From: Pseudomonadota bacterium
GTDB lineage: Bacteria; Desulfobacterota; Binatia; Binatales; Binataceae
DNA: 64,000 bases
Direction of reading: 5' to 3'
NCBI GenBank assembly: GCA_021324885.1
Contig: JAJPIF010000025.1
Span: forward strand, 110,713-174,712
In this document: in pieces, positions 28,082-33,109 of the stretch
Layout of the letters: the number at the start of each line of letters is the position of its first letter
How positions within the stretch are numbered: position 1 is the first letter of the stretch
The notes under the pieces: generated by a model
What the model was told of the DNA's origin: nothing
Databases searched by the model: none
The model's input: only the letters and a program-made list of their open reading frames with translations
Program-made: the position numbers and the translations under genes

Positions 28082-29185
28082 TCAGCTCCGCAGCTCGCGG
28101 CGCGCCGACGACGACTTGAGCTTGGGCACCACCTGGTTCGCGAACAGATCGATGGACCGCATGATCTGGTCGTGCGGCGTCGTGTAGAGCTGCATAAACA
28201 GCATTACCTCGTCCACGCCGGCATCCTCCAGGAACTGCAGGGAATCCAGGCATCGGGCAGGATCGCCGATGCAGGCGCCGCCGAACTTGACCACGTCTTC
28301 GATCGGAATCTGGTCCACCTGGGCGAAGTTCTTCACGAAATTATCGATGATAGCTTTGTAGCTGGCGGGAGGCTTGCCTTCGATCCAGGGAGCGAACAGG
28401 TCGCGCGTCTGCCGCGTGTACATCTTCATGTTCGCGCCCTGCAGGTCCAGCGCTTCGCGGTCGCTCGGCGAGCACAGCGCCATCCGCAGCACCGAGAAAT
28501 GATTATTCACGAATTTGCCGATCGGCTTGGCATTGCGGATCTTTTCGCGATAGGTCCTGACATACTCATTGGAGTTGGCCTCGCTGATGCCGAAGCCGAG
28601 TACGCCCAGCCCATGCTCGGCGGCAAACTCGACGGTTGAGGCCTGAGTGCACGCCACCGACATCGGAGGATGCGGCTGCTGGACGGGTTTGGGAATCACC
28701 GCGCGCTCGGGCATCTGGATCAGTTTGCCATCCCATTTGAACCTTTCCTGGGTCCACATCGCGGGAAGCATCGCCAGCGCCTCTTCCCATTGCGGGCGCG
28801 TCAGATCCGGATCGACATGAAACGCCGACAGCTCGGATTCGCAAATAGCGCGGCCGCCGCCGAACTCCACTCTGCCGTCGGACAGGGTATCGAGCACGGC
28901 GATGCGCTCGGCGACGCGCGCCGGATGATTAATGTTGAACGGCAGCAGCACGATCCCGTGTCCGAGCCGGATACGGCTGGTTTTGGCCGCCAGAAACGCC
29001 AAAACTTCTTCGGGCGCCGAACTATACGAAAATCGCTCGAGGAAGTGATGTTCGGTAAACCAAACGGCCCGATACCCGAGACTGTCGGCGAGCTGCACCT
29101 GCTCGATGCATTCCTTGTAGATACGCCGGACCGATTGGGGACTCGGGTCTGACGTTTCCAACTCATAGAACAGGCTGATTTCCAA
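28082..29185 (-). CDS. LLM class flavin-dependent oxidoreductase
   Basis: Luciferase-like monooxygenase, 367 residues. Motifs: YRAVWFTEHHFLERFSYSS, SRIRLGHGIVLLPFNINHPA, SDGRVEFGGGRAI, and FGGACIGDPARCLDSLQFLE near the end. It is longer than the other two LLM proteins because of an insertion around residues 235-285. The frame has no ATG near the N-terminus: the TTG at 29185, with GAGG 9 nt upstream, is the only start that keeps the first beta strand (EISLFYE). It is first in a minus-strand run with cobB (126 bp downstream) and the HyuB-like gene, though functional linkage is doubtful. Confidence 0.92.
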   Translation of the reverse strand: MEISLFYELETSDPSPQSVRRIYKECIEQVQLADSLGYRAVWFTEHHFLERFSYSSAPEEVLAFLAAKTSRIRLGHGIVLLPFNINHPARVAERIAVLDTLSDGRVEFGGGRAICESELSAFHVDPDLTRPQWEEALAMLPAMWTQERFKWDGKLIQMPERAVIPKPVQQPHPPMSVACTQASTVEFAAEHGLGVLGFGISEANSNEYVRTYREKIRNAKPIGKFVNNHFSVLRMALCSPSDREALDLQGANMKMYTRQTRDLFAPWIEGKPPASYKAIIDNFVKNFAQVDQIPIEDVVKFGGACIGDPARCLDSLQFLEDAGVDEVMLFMQLYTTPHDQIMRSIDLFANQVVPKLKSSSARRELRS

Positions 29186-29617
29186 GGCGCTTTACCTCGC
29201 TTTCAGACTTTCCGCGACATCCGCGGCCCCGCTCGTGGGCGGCCGTCCCTGCAGCCGTTTCCGCCCGCACACGGCCACACGTTTCGATCTACCATCTTTA
29301 GCCCGTTCGCATCCATACTATGCGCCGGCAACCGAAGGTGAATAAGCGTACCGTCAAAGTGCTTGCAGGAGCTTCCATTTTGCCCAGAGGGCTGCGATGT
29401 GTGGTTCAAAAGGCCCTGCAGCGCTATTTAAAAATGACGGAATTCATATTAAATCTGCGCGATTTTCTTGCGCCTTGGCCGATAATTGGGCTATGGTCCG
29501 TTCGCTTAGCTTCCAGTCTGGAGGGGGGCTTCAGTCCATGACAACCGCTTTGGTACCTTGCGTAACTTGCGGGTACGCTTTGCCGAAGGCGTCCGTGCCT
29601 GGATGAGGTATCAAAAC
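29186..29617. other. Upstream region of the peptide-modification operon
   Basis: These 432 bases separate the minus-strand LLM gene from the plus-strand peptide operon. No believable gene is present; a 35-codon frame at 29434 lacks an RBS. The part from about 29425 to 29500 is noticeably AT-richer than its surroundings. It offers only weak promoter matches (TTCAAA/TTTAAA at about 29405-29432; TTGCGC/TATGGT 18 bp apart at about 29469-29500). The operon promoter is probably here but cannot be fixed by eye. Confidence 0.5.
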
Positions 29618-29797
29618 ATGCCTCAGTCTTCGCAGGGTTCGTCGCCGCCAAGCGACAGGGAATTCACGCTCAAAACCAGGAAGCCTTACGTTAAACCATC
29701 TTTCCGGCGTGAACAGATCTTCGAAACGATGGCATTGCAGTGCGGCAAGATACAAAGCACACAGTCGTCATGTCATTACAACAGAAAGAGCTCCTGA
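29618..29797 (+). CDS. Candidate modified-peptide precursor (59 aa)
   Basis: Short peptide, 59 residues, probably the substrate of the downstream enzymes. A Ser/Gln/Pro-rich start (MPQSSQGSSPPSD) leads to a Y-x-x-P motif, KPYVKPSFRR (residues 22-31), then EQIFETMALQCGK (32-44) and a polar Ser/Thr/Gln tail with a second cysteine (Cys42, Cys52). The Y-x-x-P plus hydrophobic pattern is what PqqD-type proteins recognise in lasso-peptide leaders, and a PqqD protein is encoded in this operon. The ATG at 29618 has GAGG 9 nt upstream; an ATG at 29603 is also in frame. Its 3' end overlaps the peptidase start by 28 bp, suggesting coupling. It could be a chance frame, but motif, RBS and position argue against that. 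Confidence 0.6.
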   Translation: MPQSSQGSSPPSDREFTLKTRKPYVKPSFRREQIFETMALQCGKIQSTQSSCHYNRKSS

Positions 29798-30294
29798 TTG
29801 GTCCTTCGCTGATCGGCGAGTCGAGTATTGATGATGTAAATATTCACGATCGCATCGGCTGCGAGCTGGTTGCCGAAGCGCTTCGCGCCGGCGCTCACAC
29901 ACGCGTGCGGGTGATGGGAACCAGCATGCTTCCGGCGCTGCGGCCCGGAGACGTTCTGGTCGTGCGCGGTGGATCAGAACATCCCGCTGTGAATGAGATC
30001 GTTCTCTTCCTACGCTACGGACGCCTGTTCGCCCATCGTGTGTTGCGCAAAATCGGCGCCGACTTGATCACTCGGGGCGACGCTTTGCCCGATCCCGACC
30101 CGCCGGTGCGAGCCGCGGAATTATTGGGCGTGGTTGTCGCGGTGATCCGCGACGGTTCCCGCCAACTTCCCGCAGGGCCGCCTTCGATCGCGCAACGGAT
30201 GGCGGCTGCGGCCATGCGGCGCTCAAACACTGTCCACCGGCTGGTGCTCAGATGGTGCAATGCGCAAACCCAGAGCGTCCTGGATGAGGGCTGA
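29770..30294 (+). CDS. S24/S26 family peptidase, SipW/Sec11-like Ser-His type, soluble
   Basis: Protein of 174 residues with a signal-peptidase-type catalytic core. The Ser motif is VMGTSMLPALRPGDVLVV (Ser52), followed by NEIVLFLRYGRLFAHRVLRK (His89) and LITRGDALPDPDPP. This order, G-x-S-M-x-P then H-R-V then (K/R)GDA-x-x-x-D, matches the S26B (SipW/Sec11) class, where His replaces Lys as general base. No transmembrane segment is visible, so it is probably cytosolic. The ATG at 29770 overlaps the precursor gene; a GTG 30 bp earlier is possible. Inferred role: removal of the leader from the modified peptide, or a regulatory self-cleaving protein. HprK-like kinase follows after 12 bp. Confidence 0.85.
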   Translation: MSLQQKELLIGPSLIGESSIDDVNIHDRIGCELVAEALRAGAHTRVRVMGTSMLPALRPGDVLVVRGGSEHPAVNEIVLFLRYGRLFAHRVLRKIGADLITRGDALPDPDPPVRAAELLGVVVAVIRDGSRQLPAGPPSIAQRMAAAAMRRSNTVHRLVLRWCNAQTQSVLDEG

Positions 30295-30306
30295 GGAAGC
30301 GCGCAG

Positions 30307-31149
30307 GTGATCGCGGGCAATACCAGAGCATTCTCAGCGCAGCGATACGAAATTCGCGATTTCCATGTCTGCTTCGAGATTGGCGGCGTGCCCTTCGTGC
30401 TGACGGCGAAGGATCCCGCCTTTATCGCGATGCTGGAGAATCGCTACGCCAATTTCCTGCGCGAACGTGTTTGTGCTCGGGCTGTCAGAATAAGGATCGA
30501 GCTGACGCCACCCTGGTGTGCCACCGGCGACGCAGGCCTCGAAATCTATTTCAAAGGCGCGCGATGGGTGATGAAGCGGGGCGATTTTTACGCCGAATGG
30601 GACAGGGACTTGGGGCGAGGCACGGTTCGTCAATCGGCAAATCCTTACGCAATCGATTCAGTGATCCGGATCATGTTGAGCCTGATACTGGCGCGACAGC
30701 GCGGCTTCCTGCTCCATTCGGCGAGCGCGGTTCGCGGCGGGCGTGCTTTTTTGTTTTGCGGGGTCTCGGGGTCCGGCAAAACCACTATCGCGCGGATGGC
30801 CCCGCGCGACTCTGCCCTGCTCAGCGACGAGATTTCCTGCCTGCGCTGCACAGCAAGCGGGTATTATGCATTTGGAACCCCATTTGCCGGCGACCTTGGT
30901 GTGGCGGGCGCAGCGGTAGCAGCGCCGGTTGCCGCCCTTTACTTCCTGCGCCAGGGACCGCGCAACCGAATCGAACCAATCGACCCACCGCGCGCTGTGG
31001 CGCAACTGATGCGTAACATTCTTTTCTTCGCCAAAGACTGCGAAGCCGGGGCGCAGGTGTTCGAAACAGCCTGCGATTTCGGCGCGCGAGTCGATGCGGC
31101 TGAACTCACGTTCAAGGCCGACCCCACGGTATGGGAGCTAATCCGATGA
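30307..31149 (+). CDS. HprK-related kinase
   Basis: Protein of 280 residues related to the C-terminal kinase domain of HPr kinase/phosphorylase. The P-loop is CGVSGSGKTTIARM (152-164), preceded by GFLLHSASAV (133-142), and the acidic motif LLSDEISC lies at 171-178. The N-terminal 120 residues are unlike HprK. Similar 'HprK-rel-A' proteins are known to travel with PqqD-like peptide chaperones, with unknown targets. The start is GTG, supported by GAGG 8 nt upstream. The stop overlaps the PqqD start as ATGA. It may phosphorylate the peptide or a partner, or act as an ATP-dependent switch; no HPr/PTS genes are present here. Confidence 0.88.
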   Translation: MIAGNTRAFSAQRYEIRDFHVCFEIGGVPFVLTAKDPAFIAMLENRYANFLRERVCARAVRIRIELTPPWCATGDAGLEIYFKGARWVMKRGDFYAEWDRDLGRGTVRQSANPYAIDSVIRIMLSLILARQRGFLLHSASAVRGGRAFLFCGVSGSGKTTIARMAPRDSALLSDEISCLRCTASGYYAFGTPFAGDLGVAGAAVAAPVAALYFLRQGPRNRIEPIDPPRAVAQLMRNILFFAKDCEAGAQVFETACDFGARVDAAELTFKADPTVWELIR

Positions 31150-31448
31150 ATGACAGTACCGGCAAGAAATATATCAGCCGAAGCCAGGCGGTTGCCGCCC
31201 GCATGCTGGGCGAGGAAATGATGATCATGTCGATCCGCGACTCCGCCCTCTTCAGCCTCAATCCAACCGCCAGCGCCATCTGGCAGGCTGCCGACGGCGT
31301 CACCCCATTGCGGGAGATAGTCGAGCGCGCAATCGTTGCTCACTTCGAAGTCGAGCCGGACACCGCCTACCGCGACGCAGTCGAGTTGGTCGAAGCTTTG
31401 GCCGGCCACGGGATTTTGAAAATCGCCGCCGAGCCTGCGCGCTCATAG
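31146..31448 (+). CDS. PqqD family peptide chaperone (RiPP recognition element)
   Basis: Small winged-helix protein of 100 residues. PqqD-like proteins hold the leader of a ribosomal peptide and present it to a radical SAM enzyme. Visible family features: RDSALFSLNPTASAIWQAAD (residues 31-50, the classic L-N-x-T-A-x-x-I-W block), GVTPLREIVERAIVAHFEV, and a final helix DAVELVEALAGHGIL. The ATG at 31146 is preferred since GGGAG lies 8 nt upstream and it shares ATGA with the kinase stop; an ATG 15 bp earlier is less likely. It is the probable reader of the Y-x-x-P motif in the 59-residue peptide. Confidence 0.93.
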   Translation: MNDSTGKKYISRSQAVAARMLGEEMMIMSIRDSALFSLNPTASAIWQAADGVTPLREIVERAIVAHFEVEPDTAYRDAVELVEALAGHGILKIAAEPARS

Positions 31449-31598
31449 CACTGTCACGGCAGCGCCTCCGTAGCTTCAGGAGAGAGACCAGGAACCAGGT
31501 TTACTAATTGCGGCCACCGATGAATATCGAATCCGTGAAGCGAAATATATTCACGCCGTCCGACGTGAAACAATTGTGGTGGAGCGCAGGACACAAGC

Positions 31599-32642
31599 AT
31601 GGGCTCGCTGGTTGAAGAACTCAATGCCCGGGCGATCGAGCTTGGCGTTCCCCTCGGCGTGCATCTGGACCTGACCTGGCGATGCAACGAACGCTGCATA
31701 CATTGCTACCTCGATCACGACGGCGCCGGCGAGTTGAGTTTCGTGGAGATCGATGAATTGCTGGTCCAACTGGCCAATGCCGGGGTGTTCTTTCTTACTT
31801 TGAGCGGAGGCGAACCGCTGCTGCGCAAGGACTTCTTCGCAATCCTGCGCCGGGCCCGCGAACTCAGTTTCAACGTCAAGCTCAAGACCAACGCGATCCT
31901 GATTGGCGAGCGGGAGACTGCACTGATCCGCGACCTCGGCGTCGAGTCGGTGCAGGTAAGCATCTACTCCAATCAGCCTGAGGTTCACGACGCCATCACC
32001 GGGGCCTCCGGTTCGCTGGCGCGATCGATCCGTGCAATCCGGCTGCTGGTTTCCCGCGGCCTCAAGGTGACGATCGCCCATGTGATCATGCGTCCCAACC
32101 GCGGCCACTATCCCACCGTTCGCGCTCTGGCCGCCGAACTGGGAGCGGTCTTCACCATCGATCCGACCATCACCCCCCATATCAACGGCAACCGGTCATT
32201 GCTGGCCCTCAACATCGCGTCTGCCGATTTGCGAGATGTGCTCCGGGACAAGAGCCTGGTGGCAGACAGCAACGAGTTCGCGCCAGCCGCGCCCTCGGAT
32301 GAGGACCTGGTGAACGGGATACCGTGCAGCGCGGGCCATAGTTCCTGCTACATTTCGCCGTTTGGAGATGTCTATCCTTGCGTGCAGTTTCCTCTGCCGA
32401 GCGGCAATATCCGCCGCCAGCGGTTCATTGATATCTGGAAGCACTCGCCCCAGTTGGCTGAGGTGCGATCGATTCGTCTGCGCGATCTGCCGGTCTGCTC
32501 GACCTGCGCCCACGCCACCTCGTGCTCGCGCTGCCCGGGCCTGGCCTTTATGGAGGGCAATATGCGCGGCCCTTCCACCCAGGATTGCGAGAAATCCTAC
32601 GCGCGCACCGCAATCCCAACCGCCAATATGGTCAGACACTAG
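31599..32642 (+). CDS. Radical SAM/SPASM peptide-modifying enzyme
   Basis: Radical S-adenosylmethionine enzyme of 347 residues. The SAM cluster cysteines are C29, C33 and C36 in RCNERCIHCYLDHDG, and the SAM-binding turn is LTLSGGEPLLRKD. A C-terminal SPASM domain binds extra Fe-S clusters (GIPCSAGHSSCYISPFGDVY, then CSTCAHATSCSRCPG and a last Cys in TQDCEKS). Such enzymes make thioether, carbon-carbon or other cross-links in peptides chosen by a PqqD partner. GCAGG lies 8 nt before the ATG. It lies 150 bp after pqqD on the same strand and ends the cluster. The peptide upstream, with Cys42 and Cys52, is the obvious candidate substrate; the actual modification cannot be read from sequence. Confidence 0.93.
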   Translation: MGSLVEELNARAIELGVPLGVHLDLTWRCNERCIHCYLDHDGAGELSFVEIDELLVQLANAGVFFLTLSGGEPLLRKDFFAILRRARELSFNVKLKTNAILIGERETALIRDLGVESVQVSIYSNQPEVHDAITGASGSLARSIRAIRLLVSRGLKVTIAHVIMRPNRGHYPTVRALAAELGAVFTIDPTITPHINGNRSLLALNIASADLRDVLRDKSLVADSNEFAPAAPSDEDLVNGIPCSAGHSSCYISPFGDVYPCVQFPLPSGNIRRQRFIDIWKHSPQLAEVRSIRLRDLPVCSTCAHATSCSRCPGLAFMEGNMRGPSTQDCEKSYARTAIPTANMVRH

Positions 32643-33022: not shown

Positions 33023-33109
33023 TGGTGCGAGGGGCGGGACTTGAACCCGCACGGTATTTCTACCACGAGCCCCTCAAACTCGCGTGTCTGCCTGTTCCAC
33101 CACCCTCGC
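33023..33109 (-). tRNA. tRNA-Leu (anticodon GAG)
   Basis: An 87-nt tRNA with encoded CCA. The acceptor stem GCGAGGG (33103-33109 reversed) pairs with CCCTCGC (33027-33033 reversed), followed by discriminator A and CCA at 33023-33025. The D-arm region is GGTGGAACAGGCAGACAC. The anticodon stem CGAGT/GCTCG has one T-G wobble, and its 7-nt loop TTGAGGG gives anticodon GAG. A long variable arm and the T-arm GGTTCAAGTCC are present, all typical of leucine tRNA. It lies 13 bp after secG on the same strand, as in many proteobacteria. Confidence 0.97.

Follow-up and report, generated by a model that had tools for sequence, protein, structure and literature searches.

In a 64,000-nucleotide stretch of a Pseudomonadota genome of the family Binataceae (assembly GCA_021324885.1, contig JAJPIF010000025.1, positions 110,713 to 174,712 of the forward strand; hereafter the window), five genes lie together on one strand between positions 29,618 and 32,642. 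They encode a small cysteine-containing peptide, a Ser/His peptidase, an HprK-related kinase, a PqqD-family protein and a radical S-adenosylmethionine (SAM) enzyme with a SPASM domain. An original prediction, made from the letters alone, had read them as an operon for a ribosomally synthesised and post-translationally modified peptide (RiPP), with most junctions overlapping or 12 bp apart, and all five frames are indeed present, joined by an overlap, a 12-base gap, a second overlap and a 150-base gap:

29618..29797, + strand, precursor peptide gene, 59 amino acids (open reading frame call)
29770..30294, + strand, peptidase gene, overlapping the precursor gene; start uncertain, alternative GTG at 29740
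30307..31149, + strand, kinase gene, 12 bases after the peptidase gene
31146..31448, + strand, PqqD-family RiPP recognition element (RRE) gene, overlapping the kinase gene; start ATG at 31146 or 31131
31599..32642, + strand, radical SAM/SPASM maturase gene, 150 bases after the PqqD gene

This five-gene operon is a self-contained unit whose product is very probably a small modified peptide. It unites a conserved leader-bearing precursor gene with genes for an RRE protein and a modifying enzyme. The original prediction named the correct kind of system, a RiPP operon, and that system has turned out larger and more sharply defined than it had appeared. No window protein exceeded a curated NCBIfam cut-off among the matches shown (for the radical SAM protein, the best 25 of 75 families).

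Precursor peptide and enzymes

The window precursor has a leader with the sequence K-P-Y24-V-K-P27, followed by FET (residues 35-37), M-A-L-Q, C42-G-K, C52 and a terminal S59; searches of Pfam and NCBIfam gave no match to it at E <= 1. Peptides 58%, 44% and 48% identical to it were found in the related genomes G001, G016 and G008, each directly before the peptidase gene, with the whole cluster on one contig and in the gene order of the window. In another relative, G002, parts of the cluster lie on two different contigs, and a further precursor precedes the peptidase, kinase and PqqD genes. Genome contigs were scanned with a 30-base degenerate pattern for FETxALxCGK, which returned at least 119 stretches against about 7.5 expected at even base composition; scan counts here and below are minimum counts, and the spread across phyla is a lower bound. 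Among the matches listed, 107 of 119 carry an in-frame leader before the motif, with Y-x-x-P in 106 and L-X-K-P in one that we kept despite an unresolved residue (L106). Y-x-x-P served as a selection filter for this count, and the 12 loci dropped comprise 11 without it before the motif and L103, without an in-frame leader. A chance small frame was ruled out by the conservation across genomes and by the excess of matches over expectation. One dropped locus, L140, looks like a real precursor truncated at the end of its stretch, and L103 has the motif and the full enzyme set yet no in-frame YxxP leader, possibly through a frameshift or an assembly error.

We tabulated 110 distinct precursor sequences and counted residues on the 107. 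The pattern imposes FETxALxCGK, and these residues are therefore no evidence of conservation. Outside the search pattern, Ser is the last residue in 107/107 precursors among the matches listed, and Cys stands at -8 from the end in 97/107. The Cys residues and Y-x-x-P had been noticed in the original prediction, whereas the invariant C-terminal Ser had been overlooked; its invariance makes it a plausible target for the kinase, and the Cys at -8 indicates that recognition of the peptide end depends on a fixed spacing. The pattern left the residue before Cys-Gly-Lys free, and 101/107 listed precursors have Ala, Ser, Thr or Gly there; Gln occupies this position in four of the 107 relatives and also, as an exception, in the window peptide. 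Signal peptidases follow the A-x-A rule, and since a small residue at -1 with an Ala two positions before it (the Ala being forced by the pattern) fits this rule, the peptidase probably cuts just before Cys-Gly-Lys. With this predicted site, the product of the window precursor would run from C42 to S59 (18 amino acids), and that of the 107 listed loci would have 18 residues in 57, 21 in 33 and 17 in 7. The middle of the core is variable among the listed precursors.

Several variants of the precursor were also observed. Upstream of the L101 precursor lies a second, degenerate copy (G152:C158:9094-9186) with FETQALSYGK, in which the motif Cys is replaced by Tyr. The genomes G163 and G168 (Eisenbacteria and Fermentibacteria) hold three to four precursor paralogues each; in those read (L086, L127 and L161), CGK is followed by a Gly/Ser-rich tail of 54-55 residues, still with a terminal Ser. 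A distant cousin cluster, recognised by eye in L044 (G080:C373, 166-2991), consists of PqqD, radical SAM, precursor and signal-peptidase homologue genes followed by a PF14907 gene. Its precursor has a KKPYEKP leader and ends ...TTCAKADSGLCGPGPVQS, with YxxP, two Cys and a terminal Ser and without FETxALxCGK, which suggests a family extending beyond the motif used.

In the catalytic scheme of S26B (Sec11-type) signal peptidases, Ser acts with His and Asp, which replace Lys. The window-type peptidases have Ser with His and Asp in these roles, with S52, H89 and D104 invariant in 16/16 aligned sequences; the Pfam match is to Peptidase_S24 (24.7 bits, just above the cut-off of 23.3) and the nearest solved chains are SEC11C and SEC11A. 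Judged by these residues and matches, the peptidase is a soluble S26B/Sec11-like signal-peptidase homologue and the putative leader peptidase.

The kinase gave only PEPCK and AAA matches below threshold in Pfam, and its best NCBIfam models, ScmC and HprK_rel_A, were both below cut-off. A profile search of PDB sequences returned P-loop and PEPCK matches only, and a fold search was needed. The predicted structure (predicted local distance difference test, pLDDT, 94.7) has a PEPCK/HprK fold, aligning with PEPCK at Z 15.3 over 228 residues (3.9 Å) and with HPr kinase/phosphatase at a Foldseek E of 8e-5. A GxSGxGK loop, H118 and D155-E156 (numbering from 30364) are invariant in 15/15 aligned sequences, and the protein combines the HprK/PEPCK fold, P-loop and catalytic His/Asp expected of a lasso-peptide kinase.

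The PqqD protein matches PF05402 with 56.5 bits, and the maturase matches Radical_SAM (77.4 bits) and SPASM (45.9 bits) in Pfam. The CX3CX2C motif of the latter lies at 29-33-36 and its SPASM cysteines at 243, 261, 300, 303, 309 and 312, all nine invariant in 17/17 aligned sequences; SkfB (2.5e-34) and PqqE (2.1e-31) are the nearest solved chains.

Distribution of the system and its probable secreted partner

This peptide and its enzymes are found again in soil and groundwater bacteria belonging to several phyla. The 107 listed loci comprise 54 from Acidobacteriota, 27 from Elusimicrobiota (two of them from untitled records), 10 from Pseudomonadota, 7 from Armatimonadota or untitled relatives, 4 from Rokubacteria, 4 others and L052, which is titled Nevskia soli and was counted apart from the Acidobacteriota. 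Phylum labels were taken from record titles, records named only 'bacterium' being placed by peptide type. All four enzymes occur within the fetched stretch (<=8 kb) in 58/107 loci and at least two in 80/107, while 15/107 have none. The order precursor-peptidase-kinase-PqqD-radical SAM is found in 28 Acidobacteriota and 7 Pseudomonadota of the 58 listed full loci, kinase-PqqD-precursor-peptidase-radical SAM in 15 Elusimicrobiota and peptidase-kinase-PqqD-precursor-radical SAM in 3 Rokubacteria; 3 loci have other orders and 2 have the set on the opposite strand (where long open reading frames overlap, the position of the peptidase was set by rule). The four enzymes therefore stay together while their order changes between phyla.

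The original prediction had expected the peptide to be conserved beside homologous clusters and the other genes to co-occur, and both expectations were borne out, in the four genomes named above and in the 107 of 119 and 58 of 107 listed loci. Its description of a candidate undescribed system in the window holds in kind and falls short in scope, since the system recurs in several phyla; likewise, the remark that no transporter lies nearby is correct for the window locus and does not extend to all relatives, some of which have an ATP-binding cassette (ABC) exporter and a PF14907 gene. ABC ATPase and ABC-2 permease genes lie upstream in some Acidobacteriota relatives, the ABC-2 permease group occurring in 12 listed loci (one representative per group scanned), and a PF14907 nucleotidyltransferase is present in some relatives. 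In the 148 genomes of the window class, a clear precursor (E <= 1e-20) was found in 6, with one weak match at E 0.007. PF14907 was rejected as a specific partner, being in 68/148 genomes, with the copy of the window genome on another contig.

Precursors also occur away from the enzymes. We searched precursor-bearing genomes for the radical SAM protein (21 genomes, E <= 1e-40) and the kinase (25 genomes, E <= 1.3e-39), and found them in 20/21 and 24/25, respectively. In 15 of the 21, the precursor stretch fetched contains no radical SAM gene; 14 of these 15 genomes carry one elsewhere, 12 of them on another contig and two (L126, L124) on the same contig at a distance of about 4 kb. Similarly, 21 of the 25 lack a kinase gene in the precursor stretch and 20 of these carry one elsewhere, 17 on another contig and 3 on the same one (L126, L057, L124). 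The number of precursors per genome ranges from 1 to 4 (21 genomes). In L239 (G157:C268), two precursor genes flank a gene for a pro-kumamolisin-type protease, a different secreted neighbour.

A protein of about 600 amino acids or more adjoins many precursors, with 3 bases between the genes in G001. Three members scanned had no Pfam match, and many have an N-terminal hydrophobic stretch (by eye). Profile matches are to Cake propellers and BamB, and a structural model (mean pLDDT 72) aligns best with the 8-bladed design Cake8 (Z 30.8, 2.2 Å, 317 residues), followed by tetrathionate hydrolase (Z 26.8, 3.0 Å, 356 residues) and BamB (Z about 26); the top Foldseek rows are WD40 propellers with low TM-scores, and weaker matches include quinohemoprotein alcohol dehydrogenases. 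By profile and by model, the partner is a secreted 8-bladed pyrroloquinoline quinone (PQQ)-like beta-propeller.

This propeller family (A2-type) is found in 32/107 listed loci, many stretches ending early: 9/10 in Pseudomonadota (including L113, where it is broken), 22/54 in Acidobacteriota and 1/4 in Rokubacteria (the weak L076). Six of the 15 listed stretches without enzymes carry it, L113 among them. To quantify the association, 200 genomes were sampled from the class to which G148, an Acidobacteriales metagenome-assembled genome, belongs; three draws were taken as the same set, with listed members agreeing, and the best 10 radical SAM or best 5 propeller candidates were scored per genome. 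The precursor was found in 29 genomes, the propeller in 25 and both in 22, that is, the propeller in 22/29 precursor-bearing genomes against 3/171 others, with a Fisher value of 2.8e-20 that overstates significance, as the genomes are not independent and relatedness is uncorrected. The radical SAM clade occurs in 30 of these genomes at E <= 1e-80, a cut-off picked after viewing the list, with 27 shared with the precursor; at 1e-60 it occurs in 38, again with 27 shared.

In the window class, the propeller is present in the same 6 of 148 genomes as the precursor, plus G022, and in one of the six (G003; L042, 9079-9601) the gene is broken into two frames directly before the open precursor frame. 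The window genome itself carries an intact homologue of 667 amino acids on contig C25, where none of the cluster genes occurs within the 19 kb read around it; the gene inventory of the original prediction, sound for the five genes, had missed this protein on another contig. Large proteins encoded beside the precursor also contain PQQ_2 domains in two Acidobacteriota loci (L081, L057) and one from Armatimonadota (L062), with a signal below cut-off in L077 (Rokubacteria). In Elusimicrobiota, the cluster of L045/L238, the only genome of this phylum followed that far downstream, is succeeded by a repeat-rich protein of 4543 amino acids (L238, 1371-15002) with a C-terminal PQQ_2 propeller (46.1 bits against a cut-off of 27.6), and no propeller was found in the available parts of comparable large proteins in L051 and L094. 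Several other Elusimicrobiota loci have pseudopilin-like genes (by eye) upstream of the kinase.

Comparison with known systems

The core of a lasso peptide shows a lasso ring pattern. The window-type core, in contrast, contains Cys and no such pattern, and the window system has a radical SAM/SPASM enzyme in place of the cyclase and an S26B-type peptidase in place of the B2 protease. It is nevertheless close to the phosphorylated lasso peptides (paeninodin type; pseudomycoidin) as portrayed in PMC8498205 and PMC10368454, with which it shares the Y-x-x-P leader, a PqqD-like B1 protein, an HPr-kinase homologue, the C-terminal Ser and, in some clusters, a nucleotidyltransferase. A YxxP leader together with a B1-type PqqD is present, with the NCBIfam lasso PqqD models below cut-off (29.6 of 80). 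An Asn-synthetase-like lasso cyclase and a B2 protease were absent from the 5 window and 3 flanking genes scanned (the open reading frames of relatives were scanned in part), and an assignment as a lasso cluster was rejected, as neither was among the genes scanned.

The SynChlorMet cassette, which we take to be made up of an HprK-like protein, a PqqD homologue and radical SAM/SPASM proteins, shares these components (NCBIfam ScmC, ScmD, ScmE and ScmF), and the ScmC model matches 15/15 kinases at E <= 0.001 (best 1e-10). The window system differs from it by a single radical SAM protein, a peptidase and a defined precursor, and the assignment was rejected at window scores, against equivalog cut-offs, of 32.2/125 for ScmC, 22.1/100 for ScmD, 99.7/400 for ScmE and 71.3/400 for ScmF. 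The PQQ and mycofactocin pathways comprise a precursor, a PqqD-type reader, a radical SAM/SPASM enzyme and a peptidase, all of which the window system has, while differing from both by its kinase and its precursor; membership was rejected on the NCBIfam equivalog cut-offs for PQQ (PqqE 95.8 of 381, PqqD 13.8 of 46) and for mycofactocin (MftC 129.9 of 265 bits). Sactipeptide enzymes (SkfB, AlbA) are likewise SPASM/twitch-type radical SAM proteins acting on Cys, and SkfB is the closest solved chain. Unlike those systems, the window operon has a free-standing PqqD, a kinase and an S26B peptidase, and its thioether is a prediction; the sactipeptide or ranthipeptide traits seen are the conserved Cys and SPASM only.

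Maturation of quinohemoprotein amine dehydrogenase (QHNDH) offers a further likeness, in which a small Cys peptide cross-linked by a radical SAM enzyme (QhpC and QhpD) sits with a beta-propeller subunit (QhpB), together with a diheme cytochrome alpha subunit, the QhpC-like subunit being gamma (PMC8172795). According to the same source QhpC is a subunit of about 9 kDa with four thioethers, whereas the window system has a predicted product of 18-21 residues, a kinase and PqqD. The system is thus hybrid-like, joining the leader, PqqD, kinase and terminal Ser of the phosphorylated lasso peptides to the radical SAM/SPASM enzyme of sactipeptides and PQQ, and is a member of none of these families by the tests made. 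We found no description of this peptide or enzyme family in the open-licence PMC literature searched. Its recurrence across phyla, often alongside the propeller, points to a widespread RiPP family and an apparently undescribed peptide system.

Proposed pathway and alternatives

From the gene content, conservation, co-occurrence and partner association observed, we infer the following chemistry and role. PqqD would bind the Y-x-x-P leader and present the precursor, as its homologues suggest; such a leader motif is known from lasso systems (PMC10368454, PMC12710340). The radical SAM/SPASM enzyme would join at least one of the two conserved Cys residues (in CGK and at -8) to a peptide carbon; with the sactisynthase SkfB as the closest solved structure, a thioether is the likeliest bond. 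The HprK-fold kinase would phosphorylate the side chain of the C-terminal Ser, by analogy with several lasso kinases of Firmicutes and Proteobacteria; in PF14907-bearing clusters the phosphate may be further decorated, as a nucleotidyltransferase of lasso clusters can subsequently add sugars to it (both from PMC8498205). The Sec11-like Ser-His-Asp peptidase would cut after A-L-[A/S] to leave 18-21 residues, Cys-Gly-Lys...Cys-x6-Ser, and the peptide may then be exported and work in contact with the large secreted 8-bladed propeller, a step for which the pairing of a cross-linked small subunit with a propeller subunit in QHNDH is a precedent (PMC8172795). One enzyme set could serve precursors elsewhere in the genome. 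We regard these steps, taken together as the work of one RiPP operon, as probable by a small measure. A more specific proposal, that the product is a short cross-linked, phosphate-capped partner, prosthetic or structural, of secreted PQQ-like propellers, with one operon serving several precursor-propeller pairs, is tentative and in our estimate falls somewhat short of probable.

A number of observations weigh against this pathway. The A2-type propeller is found in just the 32 listed loci, with none in the 27 Elusimicrobiota, 7 Armatimonadota-type and 4 other loci, and is missing from 7/29 precursor-bearing genomes in the class of G148, where the relatedness of the genomes also tells against the Fisher value. 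Neither a propeller nor a remnant was found beside the window cluster (29181-29640 searched, best E 0.055). Some precursors located apart from the enzymes have different neighbours, a sedolisin in L052 (and L239) and housekeeping-like genes (by eye) in L117 and L163. Genome G151 has neither radical SAM nor kinase at the thresholds used, the sole exception for both, and G003 retains an open precursor frame despite a broken propeller gene and negative searches for a kinase and a close radical SAM protein. Exporter genes are confined to part of the Acidobacteriota, PF14907 is common anyway, and the Gln at -1 of the window peptide makes a poor signal-peptidase site. In addition, Y-x-x-P-like recognition is not specific to lasso systems, related motifs occurring in PQQ and sactipeptide RREs (PMC12710340), and one lasso kinase acts on the ring residue Ser3 and not on the C-terminal Ser (PMC10368454).

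This last case bears on the possibility that the kinase has a different target, either some other residue of the peptide or another molecule such as a regulator, with the C-terminal Ser serving recognition by the peptidase or exporter. The kinase is distant in sequence from the HprK families described, which would suit such a role; its presence in nearly all checked precursor-bearing genomes and the action of HprK-type lasso-cluster kinases on the C-terminal Ser (PMC8498205) speak for the peptide terminus, and we find another target somewhat unlikely. The product could also be a secreted signal or antimicrobial peptide, the propeller being a receptor, an immunity protein or an unrelated neighbour. 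The recurrent ABC ATPase and ABC-2 permease genes upstream in some Acidobacteriota, the one to four precursors per genome and the variable middle of the core agree with this, but an antimicrobial would be expected to vary more, the propeller accompanies the precursor even in stretches without enzymes and the window operon has no transporter, all of which make this reading unlikely.

PQQ and mycofactocin precursors carry a Tyr/Glu or a Val-Tyr pair. No such pair is found in the conserved part of the present precursor, which argues against a product trimmed in the same way to a redox cofactor and used by the secreted propeller as an enzyme. Such a cofactor would account for the PqqD and PqqE-like radical SAM proteins, for the FETxALxCGK core kept across phyla (although selected by the pattern) and for a PQQ-like 8-bladed partner with quinohemoprotein alcohol dehydrogenases among its weaker Foldseek matches. 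Nevertheless, both the length of the tail and its end (Cys -8, Ser -1) are preserved, a constraint needless for a cofactor made from few residues, and one Elusimicrobiota propeller ends a 4543-residue repeat-rich protein, unlike a dehydrogenase; we consider a cofactor decidedly unlikely. That the peptide is an orphan frame and no substrate, the operon making a small-molecule modification, has as its sole point that no product is known, and with the peptide conserved beside the enzymes across phyla it is highly improbable.

The proposed pathway, with a cross-linked and phosphorylated peptide, would bring together leader recognition through Y-x-x-P, radical SAM chemistry and a Ser kinase of the lasso type in a single conserved route with a probable protein partner. 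The genes occur in phyla known mostly from metagenomes. If the propellers do need the peptide, RiPP enzymes would mature part of large extracellular proteins, a parallel to QHNDH with a new enzyme set. The precursor motif, enzyme set and partner are defined enough for direct tests.

The surroundings of the operon in the window are unrelated to it. Upstream, on the opposite strand, lie a luciferase-like gene and a CobB/CbiA-type gene, and downstream a tRNA-Leu gene, SecG and glycolytic genes (the last by eye). The tRNA-Leu (gag; 33023-33109, - strand) is a possible integration site.

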